In this document: in pieces, positions 1 to 5,461 of the stretch
How positions within the stretch are numbered: the stretch's first letter is position 1
Layout of the letters: each line of letters begins with the position of its first letter
Source of the DNA: a bacterium
GTDB lineage: Bacteria > Gemmatimonadota > Gemmatimonadetes > Gemmatimonadales > Gemmatimonadaceae
Direction of reading: 5' to 3'
Length of the DNA stretch: 5,461 bases
Assembly (NCBI GenBank): GCA_021802745.1
Contig: JAJZRK010000216.1
Coordinates: forward strand, 1 to 5,461
Notes under the pieces: generated by a model
Told to the model about the DNA's origin: nothing
The model's input: the letters and a program-made list of their open reading frames with translations, nothing else
Databases searched by the model: none
Translations under genes and position numbers: made by a program

Positions 1-6
1 AAGCGC

Positions 7-15
7 GGGAGGGGG
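7..15 (+). promoter_or_regulatory. Ribosome binding site of the ATPase gene
   Basis: A purine run GGGAGGGGG contains a perfect GGAGG core at 8-12, seven bases before the ATG at 20. This is near-ideal Shine-Dalgarno strength and spacing and supports that start codon. The promoter, if there is one directly upstream, lies outside the window, so an operon with an upstream gene cannot be excluded. Confidence 0.8.
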
Positions 16-19
16 CACT

Positions 20-2872
20 ATGGCATCAGCATTCCATCGGTTCCGGGACGAATGGCTCGTCCGTCTTGTTGAGGGCACCGCCGGAGTGCCGGCCGAGCGC
101 ATCGAGCAATGGCGTACGGAGAAAGTCTCCTTCCTGTCGCAGGCGCTGCTTGACGCCGATGCCCTCACCTTTGCGCAGTTGGCGGAGGTGATCCGCCGCG
201 CGTTTCGCATAGAAGCAACGGAGCTGAGTGGCGGTGCGCCGAAGGAACTTGCGCAGCTGCTCCCGGAGAAGGTGACGCGACGGCACTTTGTCGTCCCCGT
301 TGAGGCGGACCAGAAGCGCGTGACGCTCGCAATGGCGAATCCGCTGGATGAGTATGCCGTTCACGACGTACAGTCTGTCACCGGCCGGACCGTCAACCCA
401 CTGTTCTGCCCACCAGCGACCTTGGAGCGCGCGACACTCGAGGAATTGGCCCCCGACGCCATCGTTTTCAACCTCCTGAAGAAATTCGAAAGTCAGACGT
501 CGGTCGAAGTGGTGGAGCGCGAATCGGACGAGCCCCTTCCCGAAGTCGGCACGGGCCCCCGCGCACCGGTGATCCAGCTGGCTGACAACATCATCGGCAA
601 CGCCGTCCTCAAGAACGCCTCGGACATTCACATCGAACACGATGAAACGTCGACGCTCGTGCGCTATCGCCTCGACGGCCTGCTGAAGAACATCATGGTC
701 CTCCCACGGTATGTGGGCGCTGGACCGCTTGTCTCGCGCATCAAGATCATGGCCGGCCTCGACGTGAGCGACCGGATGCGACCGCAGGATGGACGCGCCA
801 AGCTGAAGGTGGGTTCCACGGTGGTGGGTCTGCGCGTTTCGACGCTCCCGGCGCGAACGGGCGAAAAGGTGGTGCTCCGCATCCTCAACGAGCGCGCGAT
901 CCAGGCGAAGATTCTGCAGCTTGGGTTTCACCCGGATGTGCTGGCTCGCTTCAGTGCGATGCTCGAACTCGAACAGGGCATGGTGCTTGTCACGGGACCG
1001 ACCGGCTCCGGCAAGACCACCACGCTGTATGCCGCCCTGAACCATTTGCACGGCGAGACCGTCAATGTCGTGACCGTCGAGGATCCCATCGAGTACCGGC
1101 TCGGTGGCATCACGCAGGTGCAGGTGAACGAAAAGCAGGGACTGACCTTCGGCGCGGTCCTGCGCTCGGTGCTGCGGCAGGATCCGGACGTCGTGATGGT
1201 CGGCGAGATCCGCGACCAGGAAACGGCACAGATTGCGGTGCAGGCGGCGCTCACCGGGCACCTCGTCCTGTCGACTCTTCACACGAACGACACGGTGGGA
1301 GCCGTGACGCGCCTTGGCGACATGGGCGTCGAAGGGTTCAAGCTGGCCAGCGGGCTTGCGGGTGTCACCGCTCAGCGCCTCGTGCGACGCACCTGCCCGG
1401 AGTGCGCCGTCCCGGCCGACGCATCGGAGTTGCCCGAGAGGGTGCGCGAGGCGATGCAACGGCTGTATGGCCGCACCGCCCATATGAGGGCGCCGGGCTG
1501 CATGCATTGCAGTTTCGCCGGTTTCAAGGGACGCCTGCCGCTCATCGAGCTGCTCGACGTCGGCGGTGGATTACGGGAGGCCATCAGTCAGGGCGAGGGT
1601 GATGAGTCGCTGCGCCGGCGGGCGCTGGCGTCCGGTGCGCTTCACACGATGGAAGCAGATGCGCTGTGGCATCTACTCGAAGGCCGCACGACGCTCGAGC
1701 AGGTGCAGCCATTTCTCCTCGGTCTCGTTCACCCGGTGGATGCGCCGCGGGAAGCGCCGACGGCGTCCATGCCCGGCATCGCGGCCGGGCTCGAGGCCAC
1801 GCCGGAGGCCTGGCAGGCGACGGTCAGCGAGGCGTTTGGACTCGCCACGCAACTTCCCGCGGCGGCGGCAGGGTCATCGGGTTCCGCACCGTCGACGACG
1901 ATTTCGCCGACTGACCAGCCGCCGGCGACGCCAACGGCGTCCCCTCCCGCCTCGGCCCCGCCGGCCGCGAGCATTCCGCTGCTGGCGGAGAGCACGACCA
2001 TGCCGCAAATCCTGGTTGCCGTCTCCGATCCGATGTGGCGAGCGGTCCTTGAGGGCGCGCTCACGTCGTGCCGAGCGCAGGTGTCCTACGTGCATAGTGG
2101 TCTTGACGTACTCACTCGCGTCGCGGCCCAGGCACCCGATGTGCTGCTGACGACGGCGGATCTGTCCGGACTGAACGCCGAGCACGTGGTGCGCAGCATC
2201 CGCACCGTAATCCAGGCGACGAACGTCGCGATCCTGGCGATCCTGCCGTCGCACGACGTCGCCACGGCAGAGGCGATGATGTCGGCGGGAGCCGATGATG
2301 TGCTGCGGCCGCCAATCGATGCGGTGCAGCTGCGCGCGCGCGTTGAGGCGATGTTCCTCCGTGACCACCTTTGGTCGAAGACCGCCGATGTGATGAAGCC
2401 GCCGGTCCCGGTCCGCGAACCCGAACGGATCGCCGCGTTGCACGCCACGGGCCTTCTCGACACGCCGGCGGAGGAGCGCTTCGACCGGATCACGCAGGAG
2501 GTCACGGAGTCATTCGGCGTGCCGATGTCCGTGATCTCGCTGGTGGACAGCGACCGCCAGTGGTTCAAGTCGAAGCAGGGATTGTTGGCCGACCAGACGC
2601 ACCGTGATATCTCGTTCTGCGGGCACGCCATCAACTACGACGGAGTGTTCGTCGTGGAGGATGCTTACCTGGATCCCCGTTTCTCCGAGAACCCGCTGGT
2701 AACGGGTGACCCGAACGTGCGCTTTTACGCCGGGGCTCCCATCAAATCGCCCGATGGGCACAAGATTGGGACGCTGTGCGTGCTCGACCATGCGCCGCAC
2801 CAGTTCACGGATGAGGAACGGTCCAAGCTCGCGAGCCTTGCGCGCGAAGTTGAGGCGGAGATGTTCCGCTAG
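20..2872 (+). CDS. GspE/PilB-family assembly ATPase fused to a pseudoreceiver and a GAF domain
   Basis: This is a cytoplasmic hexameric motor ATPase of the type IV pilus/type II secretion family, which powers pilin or pseudopilin assembly at the inner membrane. Residues about 30-140 resemble the MshEN/GspE N-terminal domain (LLPEKV at 80-85, then VTLAMANPLD from 101). Residues about 180-570 form the motor. The motor shows ASDIHIE (200-206), RYRLDG (215-220), Walker A GPTGSGKT (326-333; Lys332), the Asp box VEDPIE (353-358), Walker B DVVMVGEIRD (390-399; Glu396), the His box TGHLVLSTLHTND (412-424) and a zinc tetracysteine (C459/C462 and C494/C497). All key motor residues are present. The usual family length is about 560-570 aa; this protein has 950. 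Residues 573-660 form an Ala/Pro/Ser/Thr-rich linker. Residues 661-785 form a receiver-like fold with Thr712 where the phospho-Asp should be. Residues about 792-950 form a GAF domain (SFCGHAI around Cys867, RFYAGAP, GTLCVLD around Cys920). The start at 20 is supported by a strong GGAGG. PilB and GspE cannot be told apart without neighbouring genes, so no symbol is given. Confidence 0.93.
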   Translation: MASAFHRFRDEWLVRLVEGTAGVPAERIEQWRTEKVSFLSQALLDADALTFAQLAEVIRRAFRIEATELSGGAPKELAQLLPEKVTRRHFVVPVEADQKRVTLAMANPLDEYAVHDVQSVTGRTVNPLFCPPATLERATLEELAPDAIVFNLLKKFESQTSVEVVERESDEPLPEVGTGPRAPVIQLADNIIGNAVLKNASDIHIEHDETSTLVRYRLDGLLKNIMVLPRYVGAGPLVSRIKIMAGLDVSDRMRPQDGRAKLKVGSTVVGLRVSTLPARTGEKVVLRILNERAIQAKILQLGFHPDVLARFSAMLELEQGMVLVTGPTGSGKTTTLYAALNHLHGETVNVVTVEDPIEYRLGGITQVQVNEKQGLTFGAVLRSVLRQDPDVVMVGEIRDQETAQIAVQAALTGHLVLSTLHTNDTVGAVTRLGDMGVEGFKLASGLAGVTAQRLVRRTCPECAVPADASELPERVREAMQRLYGRTAHMRAPGCMHCSFAGFKGRLPLIELLDVGGGLREAISQGEGDESLRRRALASGALHTMEADALWHLLEGRTTLEQVQPFLLGLVHPVDAPREAPTASMPGIAAGLEATPEAWQATVSEAFGLATQLPAAAAGSSGSAPSTTISPTDQPPATPTASPPASAPPAASIPLLAESTTMPQILVAVSDPMWRAVLEGALTSCRAQVSYVHSGLDVLTRVAAQAPDVLLTTADLSGLNAEHVVRSIRTVIQATNVAILAILPSHDVATAEAMMSAGADDVLRPPIDAVQLRARVEAMFLRDHLWSKTADVMKPPVPVREPERIAALHATGLLDTPAEERFDRITQEVTESFGVPMSVISLVDSDRQWFKSKQGLLADQTHRDISFCGHAINYDGVFVVEDAYLDPRFSENPLVTGDPNVRFYAGAPIKSPDGHKIGTLCVLDHAPHQFTDEERSKLASLAREVEAEMFR
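1987..2002 (+). promoter_or_regulatory. Possible internal translation start for a receiver-GAF product
   Basis: Within the ATPase gene, GGAG at 1987-1990 lies nine bases before an in-frame ATG at 2000. That ATG encodes Met661, which is exactly where a free-standing receiver domain would begin (MPQILVAVSDP). Translation from here would give a separate protein of 290 residues containing the pseudoreceiver and GAF domains. The spacing is acceptable and the motif is short, so chance is quite possible in GC-rich sequence. It could also be a relic of two genes fused through the linker. Confidence 0.25.
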
Positions 2873-2900
2873 GCTCGCGACCTCTGCGCCGGCTGACGGC

Positions 2901-2937
2901 ACGCCGCACCGCGTACGCGGTGCGGCGTTTCTCGTTT
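2901..2937 (+). terminator. Rho-independent terminator after the ATPase gene
   Basis: Positions 2901-2928 are a perfect 28-base palindrome whose left half is ACGCCGCACCGCGT. As RNA this folds into a GC-rich hairpin of about 12 pairs closed by a tight loop. It is followed by TTT, then CTCGTTT, an interrupted T-rich tail. It starts 28 bases after the TAG stop. The stem is very strong and the T tract imperfect, as is common in high-GC genomes. The rest of the 227-bp gap to the next gene shows no convincing promoter or small gene. Confidence 0.72.
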
Positions 2938-3066
2938 CCAGCTGCACGACGTGTCGCGGACGACGCACAGCCCTGACGCGATGTGACTGCGAATCGCGCT
3001 GCCTGCCGCTTGCGGCGTGTTTGACCGAACGTCGATACTTACGGAACCGCAACCGCGGTAGGGCCC

Positions 3067-3095
3067 CCCAGGTTTTGTACTCTCACGCCTGGGAG
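3067..3095 (+). promoter_or_regulatory. Ribosome binding site within a small inverted repeat, upstream of the hydrolase gene
   Basis: GGGAG at 3091-3095 precedes the ATG at 3100 by four bases, which is a little close but usable. Its first three bases also form the end of the right arm of an inverted repeat, CCCAGG (3067-3072) and CCTGGG (3088-3093), separated by 15 bases. If the hairpin forms in the mRNA it would partly hide the ribosome binding site and lower or control translation. The stem is only six pairs, so this may be coincidental. The ribosome binding site is more secure than the hairpin. Confidence 0.4.
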
Positions 3096-3099
3096 CTCG

Positions 3100-5025
3100 A
3101 TGTCCGCCTCACTTCCGCCCGTCGATTGCCCGGACCGCGCGCCGTCGCGCCGTTCCACGCGCATGCTGCTCCTTTCGCTTGCGCTGATCTTTGCCGGCAG
3201 CGTCGGCGGCTACGTCGTGAAGACCGACGCCGGTCGCGTCGATGTCACCGGGATCACGCTTCCGACGCAGGATGGACAATGGGTTGCTGCCGACATCTTC
3301 CGTCCACTCGCCGCCTCGAGCAAGAATCCGGTTCCCCTCGTCGTCGTCTGCCCCGGATTTGAACGCAGCAAGGAGACGCTCGACAGCTACGCCATCGAGC
3401 TCGCCCGGCGCGGCATGGCGGTGATCACCATCGATCCGTACGCCCAAGGTGCGTCGAGCAGTTCGCGGCAACGTCGTTCGGCAACTCTCGAGGGCTACGG
3501 CGTGATCCCGATGGTGGAGTACGTCGCCAGTACACCGAACCTGAACTACGTGGACAAATCCCGCATTGGCGCCGCCGGCTACTCGGCCGGCGGCAATGCG
3601 GTCATTCAGGCGGCGGCGCACTTCGGTGGACGTCAGCCACGCGTCGGCCGGCGGGCCCAGTCGGTGGAGCCGCCCCCTGCGCCGACGCCGAAGCCGCCCA
3701 GCAAGCTCGCCGCCGTCTTCGTGGGCGGGTACGTGCTCACGCTCACCGACAGCGTACTCGTGCCCGTGCGCTCGAACGTCGGCATGGACTATGCCTTTTA
3801 CGATGAGGGGGCGTTCCGCAATGCGCTCAAGCACGCCGACATGCGCACGGCACCCGAGGCCCTTCGACTGGTGAATTCCGGCCTGTCCAAGGACAGTGCC
3901 ATCACGGCCGTCGAAATTGGCCGGCGCTACGGGGACCCGGTGAATCGGACGATGCGGGTTGTGTACAACACGGTGAACCTTCATCCGTTGCTACCGTATG
4001 ATCCGCGTTCCATCGCGCATGTGGTGGACTACTTCACCACGGTGTTCGGCCTGACGCCGACGATGCCGTCCACGGACCAGCGGTGGTGGTTGAAGGAGTT
4101 CTTCACGCTCGTTGCCCTGGTCGGCGGCCTGCTGTTCCTGGTGCCGTTTGGTGCGCTGCTGCTCAAGACGCCGGCCTTTGCCGCGCTGGCGAAGCCAATT
4201 CCCCCCGCCCTGCCAAAGCCGGGAGCGACCGGCACGGTGCTCTATTGGACGACGTTTGCAGTGGGCGCCCTGCTCGCCTGCTTTCTTTTCATTCCGATGG
4301 TCCTACTGACCTTCAAGGTGTTCCCGGCCGCCAGTGCTGCACAGCAGACGTGGTGGTTCCCGCAGCGCATCAACAACGCCGTCTTGCTGTGGGCCATCGC
4401 CAACGGGCTGCTCGGCCTGCTGTTCGTGTGGCTCACCTACCGCTTCTTCGGCCGACGGAATGGCGTGCGCCCCGAGATGCTCGGGTTGCAGACAACCGCG
4501 GGCGAGCTGGGACGCACTGTGCTGCTGGCGTTGGCGATCGCCGGCGGGTTCTTCGTGCTCCTCTTTGCGGCATACGGTGTCTTCCATACCGACTTCCGCT
4601 TCCTGTTCGTCTCGGCGCCGGCGTCGTTCCCGCGGCGGATGGTGCTGGTGGCGCTGATGTACCTGCCGCTCTTTTTCATCTTCTATTTTGCCAACTCGGT
4701 GCGCGTGAACTCGGCGGGCCGCTTTGCGCACCAACCCGAATGGCGCAGCCTGCTCATCAACGGGCTCGGCAACTCGGTGGGGCTCGTGCTGATTCTCCTC
4801 ATCCAGTACGCCAGCTTTGTGGGCACCGGCACCGTGTATTGGACGGCGGAGTGGCTGTTCGCCAACCTGCTGTTCGGCATCATCCCAATGATGTTTCTAC
4901 TCCCGCTTTACAACCGGTGGTTCTTCAACCTTACCGGGCGCGTGTACCTCGGGCCGATGGTGACGTGTCTCGTGTTCGTGATGATGATGCTCACGAGCAA
5001 CGTCTGCTACATCCCATTGCGGTAG
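3100..5025 (+). CDS. Membrane-anchored alpha/beta hydrolase with C-terminal polytopic membrane domain
   Basis: The protein has 641 residues. An arginine-containing N-terminus (RAPSRRSTR) precedes a hydrophobic segment at about 22-40, which looks like a signal anchor. Residues about 45-320 form an alpha/beta-hydrolase domain of the dienelactone-hydrolase type: a VVCPGF strand/oxyanion region, the ITIDPYAQGASSS loop, and the nucleophile elbow GYSAGG with Ser162. His307 (in HVVDYF) is the best catalytic-His candidate and His295 a less likely one; the acid residue was not identified. By the positive-inside rule this domain should face the periplasm. A proline-rich insert (about 190-200) follows the nucleophile region. 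After about residue 333 come roughly eight membrane helices (about 334-355, 381-406, 427-446, 473-495, 514-533, 552-575, 586-606 and 617-636). I recall similar hydrolase-plus-membrane proteins annotated only as alpha/beta hydrolases, without a known substrate. An ester or peptide substrate in the envelope is a guess. The start at 3100 has GGGAG upstream; Met22 (3163) is an alternative without one and would remove the basic N-terminus. Confidence 0.88.
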   Translation: MSASLPPVDCPDRAPSRRSTRMLLLSLALIFAGSVGGYVVKTDAGRVDVTGITLPTQDGQWVAADIFRPLAASSKNPVPLVVVCPGFERSKETLDSYAIELARRGMAVITIDPYAQGASSSSRQRRSATLEGYGVIPMVEYVASTPNLNYVDKSRIGAAGYSAGGNAVIQAAAHFGGRQPRVGRRAQSVEPPPAPTPKPPSKLAAVFVGGYVLTLTDSVLVPVRSNVGMDYAFYDEGAFRNALKHADMRTAPEALRLVNSGLSKDSAITAVEIGRRYGDPVNRTMRVVYNTVNLHPLLPYDPRSIAHVVDYFTTVFGLTPTMPSTDQRWWLKEFFTLVALVGGLLFLVPFGALLLKTPAFAALAKPIPPALPKPGATGTVLYWTTFAVGALLACFLFIPMVLLTFKVFPAASAAQQTWWFPQRINNAVLLWAIANGLLGLLFVWLTYRFFGRRNGVRPEMLGLQTTAGELGRTVLLALAIAGGFFVLLFAAYGVFHTDFRFLFVSAPASFPRRMVLVALMYLPLFFIFYFANSVRVNSAGRFAHQPEWRSLLINGLGNSVGLVLILLIQYASFVGTGTVYWTAEWLFANLLFGIIPMMFLLPLYNRWFFNLTGRVYLGPMVTCLVFVMMMLTSNVCYIPLR

Positions 5026-5034
5026 CGGGCGCTA
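5023..5034. repeat. Short inverted repeat spanning both convergent stop codons
   Basis: TAGCG (5023-5027) and CGCTA (5030-5034) form a perfect inverted repeat with a two-base centre. The left TAG is the stop of the hydrolase gene, and the right CTA is the stop (TAG) of the minus-strand TfoX-like gene. The two coding regions are only six bases apart. The stem is short and neither side has a T tract, so this is not a convincing bidirectional terminator. The two transcripts probably run into each other's 3' ends. Confidence 0.5.
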
Positions 5035-5385
5035 CTTCTTCGGCGCGGGTTTCTTGGGCGTCTTCCGGGCCACCTTCTTCTTTGGTGCGGGCAGTGCCGC
5101 ATCGGTGGCGTCGACCAACTGCACCAGCCAGCCCGGATCGTCCAACAGATCTGACACATTGAAGTACGGTTTCGCACCCGGGTAGGGCTCGCCATAGGTG
5201 GGCGAACCGAGCACCGACTCCCCGGCCGGTGTCGGCTTCACGAACAGCTGATTGTCGCAGATGAGACCGACGATCTTGCCGTGGCGGTACAGCCCGTACT
5301 CGCCGAACATCCGGCGCGCGCTGATCCCGCCCGCGGCGTGCAGTTGATCACACACATACTTGGCGTATTCGGTATCGGTGGCCAT
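5032..5385 (-). CDS. TfoX N-terminal domain protein with lysine-rich tail
   Basis: This is a small cytoplasmic protein of 117 residues when started at Met 5385. It matches the TfoX N-terminal domain family: an opening helix ending in YVCDQL, then ARRMFGEYGLY, KIVGLICDNQLFVKP, and an EPYPGAKPYF segment. The family is named after the competence regulator TfoX/Sxy, but stand-alone domains like this one have no established role, so a competence function should not be assumed. Residues after about 100 form a tail of repeated Lys, Ala and Pro (PKKKVARK, PKKPAPKK); a basic tail is also seen in relatives I recall. The reading frame stays open to an ATG at 5454, which would add 23 residues. I prefer 5385 because family members typically begin with a short Met-Ala-Ser/Thr sequence directly before this first helix, and the extra residues resemble no domain. 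Neither start has a clear Shine-Dalgarno (a G run lies 12 bases before 5385). The gene converges on the hydrolase gene. Confidence 0.82.
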   Translation of the reverse strand: MATDTEYAKYVCDQLHAAGGISARRMFGEYGLYRHGKIVGLICDNQLFVKPTPAGESVLGSPTYGEPYPGAKPYFNVSDLLDDPGWLVQLVDATDAALPAPKKKVARKTPKKPAPKK

Positions 5386-5440
5386 CTGGGCAACATGCCC
5401 CCGTTCGACCGCCGCGACAAGATCGCCCGTTGCGCCGGCG

Positions 5441-5461
5441 TAATGCATATTCATTTCATGA
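5441..5461 (-). promoter_or_regulatory. AT-rich patch upstream of the TfoX-like gene
   Basis: Sixteen of these 21 bases are A or T, in sharp contrast to the rest of the window. The patch lies 56-76 bases upstream of the preferred start at 5385. Such a patch fits a promoter -10 region or 5' leader better than coding sequence in this genome, but no clean -35/-10 pair can be read before the window ends. Confidence 0.25.

Follow-up and report, generated by a model that had tools for sequence, protein, structure and literature searches.

How is an assembly ATPase controlled when a sensor-type module is built into its own polypeptide? The question is raised by the window, a 5,461-nucleotide stretch of DNA from a Gemmatimonadaceae bacterium (assembly GCA_021802745.1, contig JAJZRK010000216.1, positions 1 to 5,461), in which a single stop-free open reading frame at 20..2872 on the forward strand, with an ATG start and 950 residues, joins a PilB/GspE-class motor to a receiver-like domain (REC) and a GAF domain. 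The fusion as such is unsurprising, since REC-tailed motors are frequent in Gemmatimonadota and Elusimicrobia; judged from the alignments, the surprising part is that the phosphorylation site of the receiver is lost together with the presence of the GAF. The features of the gene are as follows, with c-di-GMP standing for cyclic di-guanosine monophosphate:

20..2872, forward strand: fused assembly ATPase of layout MshEN-T2SSE-pseudoREC-GAF, 950 residues (open reading frame, Pfam, homologue alignment)
8..13, forward strand: GGAGGG, resembling a ribosome-binding site, just 5' of the start codon (by eye)
239..433, forward strand: MshEN domain, residues 74-138, with no recognisable c-di-GMP motif in the N-terminal part (Pfam, motif scan)
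563..1705, forward strand: T2SSE motor domain, residues 182-562 (Pfam, alignment)
995..1024, forward strand: Walker A, GPTGSGKTTT, residues 326-335 (alignment)
1394..1510, forward strand: tetracysteine region with C459, C462, C494 and C497 (alignment)
1709..1999, forward strand: linker rich in Ala, Pro, Ser and Thr, residues 564-660, longer than the linker of eight aligned loci
2009..2347, forward strand: pseudo-receiver, residues 664-776, phosphorylation site lost (Pfam, CheY alignment)
2471..2857, forward strand: GAF domain, residues 818-946, signature residues conserved, nearest solved GAF that of Dcsbis (Pfam, alignment)

The receiver of the fused motors and its GAF-less relatives

In the window protein, Pfam scores exceed their cut-offs for MshEN (46.0 bits against 23.1), T2SSE (411.5 against 24.9), GAF (66.5 against 22.4) and, as a narrow pass, Response_reg (35.4 against 30.2). 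The window was placed on contig C162 of genome G000, whose copy of the protein is 99.895% identical, one residue apart, so that the window may stem from another, closely related assembly. Species genomes returned 80 loci, eight of which (L009-L015 and L018) match nearly the whole query; all eight have a single open frame, 888-972 codons long from stop to stop, and seven are labelled Gemmatimonadota, the eighth being L009, from an unidentified bacterium, which ends at a contig edge, while L015 has masked stretches. A profile search over 5.8 billion proteins yielded, among the best 120 matches listed, 105 proteins of at least 850 residues, the organisms named for them being Gemmatimonadaceae, Gemmatimonadetes or Longimicrobiales. 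Precomputed Pfam lists of these proteins hold T2SSE, REC and GAF in 85 cases, lack the REC call in 18 and the GAF call in two; in some relatives Response_reg stays below its cut-off or has no match. An earlier sequence-only reading had described an uninterrupted run from motor to receiver-like fold to GAF, and the open frame, Pfam and the homologues of the same layout bear this out. It had also named a consistent split of the homologues near position 1990 as the sign of two wrongly joined genes; the eight loci and 104 database proteins instead align along a single chain.

Residues were counted over 106 aligned rows, namely the window and the 105 database proteins, one of which (P0072) is the window's own protein, leaving 105 distinct; 14 shorter matches and P0120 (Elusimicrobia, 722 residues, no GAF) were excluded. 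In the window receiver T712 stands at the phosphoacceptor position, P764 at the Lys, L742 at the Thr/Ser and V668-S669 at the acidic pair. With a complete site defined as the acidic residue, D57, T/S87 and K109 in CheY numbering, the CheY alignment finds it in 0 of 106 fused rows versus 41 of 41 GAF-less PilB proteins that end in a receiver (PilB-REC). Asp57 survives in six fused rows, Thr/Ser87 in two and Lys109 in none, whereas the acidic pair and each of these three positions are kept in every one of the 41 cousins. At 70% REC identity the fused receivers form 28 clusters and the GAF-less ones eight, so the fused count is not one sequence repeated, though it is largely one evolutionary lineage. 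What had been read as a receiver-like domain thus stands as a fold, the match being over the cut-off, but hardly resembles a working receiver, its site residues being replaced. Across nine locus pairs of relatives, the window not among them, the ratio of non-synonymous to synonymous substitution rates (dN/dS) is 0.05-0.08 for REC, 0.00-0.13 for GAF and 0.00-0.11 for the MshEN part; as REC lies within the MshEN range, the pseudo-receiver seems to be kept rather than decaying.

Like the window protein, the PilB-REC motors have motor and receiver in one chain, and both the motor tree and the REC profile make them its closest relatives that lack a GAF; unlike it, they keep the complete site and carry no GAF. 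They make up part of L016-L046, mostly from Elusimicrobia with one Deltaproteobacteria and one Cloacimonetes-labelled locus, and a separate Gemmatimonadota clade (L091, L094-L111) that includes a G000 paralogue on contig C165. In a sample of 101 genomes from the phylum, at least 30 contain a match that extends from the motor at least as far as query residue 750, and the fused family, taken as a match above 500 bits, a threshold that would miss more distant members, is found in at least three (G000, G014 and G093), one of them ending at a contig edge before the tail. Against a profile built from the fused receivers, the receivers linked to PilB score a median of 82.5 bits in the mostly Elusimicrobia set and 80.5 bits in the Gemmatimonadota relatives; of the remaining frames in the fetched loci, a small background, L040 scores highest at 93.5 bits and is itself a PilB-REC, and the next reaches 49.4. 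In a motor tree built without the long or doubtful rows L045_1235, L044_589, L045_584, L043_863 and L034_838, the fused, the Elusimicrobia PilB-REC and the Gemmatimonadota PilB-REC motors each fall on one side of a branch, with support of 79, 97 and 100. On this sequence evidence the likely order is that the receiver came first, and the GAF and the loss of the site later.

Around the PilB-REC cousins, no histidine kinase gene was recognised in three neighbourhoods in which some genes were profile-tested; NUDIX genes adjoin the cousins there (two by Pfam, one by eye). A gene for an FHA-GAF-adenylate/guanylate cyclase lies about 4 kb from PilB-REC in two relatives (L140:14710-16296 and L141:2915-4486). 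In L034:56-2569 the PilB-REC frame runs on into a Trans_reg_C DNA-binding domain (838 residues), and this locus is labelled Cloacimonetes, yet its motor is near-identical to that of Elusimicrobia L038.

The GAF domain and a proposed change of input

The motor in front of this tail is intact, as the sequence-only reading had stated from the Walker, Asp-box, His-box and tetracysteine residues. Walker A K332 and T333 are kept in 105 of 106 rows, with one gap each, and E354, D355, E396, H414 and H421 of the Asp box, Walker B and His box in all 106, as are the tetracysteine residues C459, C462 and C494, with C497 in 105. The window protein has these elements, and MshEN in front, in common with PilB and GspE ATPases; it adds the C-terminal pseudo-receiver and GAF and misses both equivalog cut-offs, with 481.1 bits against 675.65 for NCBIfam TIGR02538 (PilB) and 504.1 against 630.25 for TIGR02533 (GspE). 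We therefore class it as a PilB/GspE-class motor and not as PilB or GspE proper; its best solved-structure match is 3jc8 (PilB), and the fused proteins carry the database name 'type IV pilus assembly protein PilB'.

Six GAF residues, W848, K850, C867, H869, R901 and Y903, are invariant across the 106 rows. The sole solved chain matched by this GAF at E<=0.01 is Dcsbis (PA2771, PDB 4zmu; E 7.1e-40), a GAF-GGDEF diguanylate cyclase in which the GAF is N-terminal and controls the cyclase, whereas in the window it is C-terminal on a motor. The Dcsbis GAF is described as a dimer with a large hydrophobic pocket, proposed to receive an as yet unnamed small molecule. A search with the tail (residues 655-950) returned many GAF sensor kinases besides the fused motors.

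Given these alignments, we lean towards a swap of the control input of a PilB/GspE-class motor, in which the GAF would replace phosphorylation and the pseudo-receiver would relay to the motor. When the GAF senses a ligand or a change in redox state, the pose or pairing of GAFs on neighbouring subunits would alter; by analogy to the Dcsbis GAF, they may pair or unpair with ligand. Joined to the motor through a flexible linker, the pseudo-receiver would act as a fixed adaptor that passes the change to the hexamer, and this relay would set motor activity or docking. The chain is conserved as a single one, so the module would sit on every subunit, in agreement with the earlier suggestion of a sensor-type module in the same chain.

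The strongest competitor, though a fairly unlikely one, is that the pseudoREC-GAF tail senses no ligand and serves to dock or localise the motor at a cell pole or at partner proteins. Pseudo-receivers such as that of FrzS take part in type IV pilus-linked polarity, and the motor gene is an orphan, so its partners must come from elsewhere; both points suit a docking tail. Six invariant GAF residues, however, exceed the needs of a plain docking surface, and among the matches listed many other proteins with this GAF type carry histidine kinase domains, which again speaks for sensing.

A second family with the same tail

The tail search also returned ten proteins of about 600 residues in which a metallo-beta-lactamase (MBL)-fold domain is followed by REC and GAF. 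These phosphodiesterase-like proteins (P0143, P0184 and their kin) have the tail order, GAF signature and lost receiver site of the window protein, their output being the MBL-fold domain where that of the window is the motor. Members with and without GAF came up when the N-terminal part of one such protein was used as query. The family set totals 126 proteins, of which nine fall below 520 residues; of these nine, P0254 and P0276, which end inside a cut or broken GAF, were set aside. The complete REC site occurs in 0 of 117 members with GAF versus seven of seven without, and 25 of the 117 still have the Asp. Among the tail-search matches and the fetched loci, no further class of output in which REC immediately precedes a GAF of this type was found, in a small test where one of 41 candidate segments was long enough; in 15 segments from fetched loci, receiver matches came solely from copies of the fused motor.

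The site was probably lost twice, separately in the motor and MBL families, because each degenerate receiver is nearest to the intact receiver of its own family. A profile of the MBL pseudo-receivers scores the intact MBL receivers at 115.4 bits and the fused motors at 44.9; the fused-motor profile gives 82.5 and 80.5 bits for PilB-REC, 65.1 for the intact MBL receivers and 61.0 for the MBL pseudo-receivers, which leaves a modest margin for the motor family. A single loss would apply if REC-GAF had been acquired as one ready-made degenerate module common to both families. The receivers are indeed degenerate in both, and the MBL tails are 38-44% identical to the window tail over 78-99% of the region in nine of ten rows (52% over 64% in the tenth); the own-family proximity of each receiver, even with that modest margin, nevertheless makes one shared module unlikely.

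Within P0130, P0143, P0184, P0285 and their kin, members with REC alone have the intact site and members with REC-GAF the lost one. Sources of the GAF-bearing MBL proteins include Geminicoccaceae, Methylomirabilota, Rokuibacteriota and Verrucomicrobiota; in 41 genomes (the window's own and relatives), none of the matches listed spans the whole of P0143.

Another alternative takes the GAF to be a redox sensor working through two conserved cysteines, C867 (106 of 106 rows) and C920 (105 of 106). By alignment, however, the Dcsbis GAF has Cys at these two positions as well, and a small-molecule pocket has been proposed for it; we regard a redox role of this pair as improbable. Finally, an assembly or sequencing error that fused two genes, to which the weak REC match and long linker of the window copy might point, can be rejected with near certainty, as the same chain recurs in the eight loci and 104 database proteins and the GAF-less cousins already carry a fused REC.

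Three motors in one genome and the surroundings of the gene

Genome G000, estimated to be 94% complete, has nine T2SSE matches, of which three span the whole profile. One is a PilB on contig C223 that adjoins PilT-like and PilC-like genes and carries the tandem c-di-GMP motif, with 11/11 and 10/11 positions and a 5-residue spacer; the one on C165 lacks this motif and keeps its receiver intact; the window motor has neither, its best motif score being 5/11. The motif scored was the tandem RLGxx[LVI][LVI]xxG... of 11 positions, taken from PMC5013675, and both the 105 fused proteins and 100 shuffled sequences score 4-7. That paper allows that a perfect MshEN motif may not be required for c-di-GMP; compared with the MshEN receptors it describes, the window has a homologous domain in which the motif is not recognisable. 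The sequence-only reading had named c-di-GMP acting on the N-terminal domain as a usual means of control, and at a score no better than that of shuffled sequence such control through the window MshEN is not supported, nor is it likely as an extra input. That interpretation as a whole is supported in part, its conserved one-chain motor with REC-like and GAF domains being retained. Five GGDEF matches make c-di-GMP signalling plausible in G000 itself.

The genome has one strong PilC-type gene, that on C223, and a gene on C14 in which two T2SSF matches are weaker yet pass the cut-off. The window motor may thus serve the type IV pilus platform of its own cell as an alternative engine, beside the PilB with the c-di-GMP motif and the PilB-REC; that the three share a platform is our inference. 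Put more generally, and more tentatively than the swap in this motor, wherever a GAF of this type is placed on a receiver-tailed protein, the receiver could lose its site and become a fixed relay, turning kinase control into direct ligand control. This would have happened at least twice, in a pilus-type motor and in an MBL-fold protein, and three paralogous motors of one cell would then answer to c-di-GMP, a phosphorelay and a GAF ligand.

Several observations weigh against the proposed change of input, its order and its link to a pilus. The homologue searches started from sequences that carry a GAF and list the best 120 matches, so that members combining a GAF with an intact REC could lie below that limit. 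The seven GAF-less MBL proteins are classed on protein sequence, and several of the dN/dS pairs, which do not include the window, are saturated, with dS at about 1 or above. The support of 79 for the fused group is under the tool's star, and a tree with the long branches kept places Elusimicrobia inside the fused group, with three changes needed, in part because L018 lay outside the fused label; for these two reasons the order of events is not proven. Beside the motor, pilC, pilin and pilT were not recognised in the window genome or its relatives, where some neighbours were profile-tested. The gene is also accessory, missing without significant trace from that place in five of five same-genus genomes examined, and in ten other genomes of the genus the best match is 36-44% identical and not of the fused form.

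The neighbour check suggested by the sequence-only reading thus recognised no pilus gene among the neighbours covered, the adjacent genes of the window genome encoding an alpha/beta-hydrolase-type membrane protein, a thiolase and a 3-hydroxyacyl-CoA dehydrogenase. In the five same-genus genomes the hydrolase and thiolase genes stand side by side with other sequence between them; this gap (L120-L124) holds largely different sequence in each genome, two sharing a stretch at 66%, and appears to be a variable spot. We considered whether a foreign contig had been binned into the genome and rejected this, since its flank matches genomes of the same genus with DNA identities of up to 84-88%, for instance G001 with 84% over 3.2 kb, and the order of the neighbouring genes is kept. 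At the relatives' loci, a divergent Crp-like gene and a monooxygenase gene lie upstream in seven of eight by sequence look (L011 comes without upstream sequence), and one copy each is confirmed by Pfam as a Crp-type helix-turn-helix and a luciferase-like monooxygenase. About 7 kb from the motor on C162 lies a gene for a PilT-like ATPase (L089:17559-18641) with the Walker A GVPGSGRTST, in which Lys is changed to Arg; two genomes of the same genus retain it with about 92% identity, and it is perhaps an altered motor. The window closes with a reverse-strand gene at 5032-5454 that carries a TfoX_N domain (52.7 bits); in other bacteria, proteins of the TfoX type have a link to competence.

In the open-licence literature searched, at the level of titles and the starts of abstracts, we found no description of a PilB-REC-GAF protein, of a PilB with a C-terminal receiver or of a linked loss of the phosphorylation site. 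The joining of MshEN to REC domains was already reported in PMC5013675; new here is the loss of the REC site linked to a GAF. If the proposed swap of input is true, the motor itself would sense the signal that gates pilus assembly or secretion, with neither a kinase nor a separate adaptor, and such gating would coexist in one cell with differently wired motors. Families that occur in pairs, one form with the GAF and one lacking it, offer a natural experiment in how receiver domains become passive relays, with the GAF-less cousins as ready controls for testing what the GAF senses, and the recurrence of the pairing in an unrelated enzyme family suggests a reusable way of rewiring bacterial machines.

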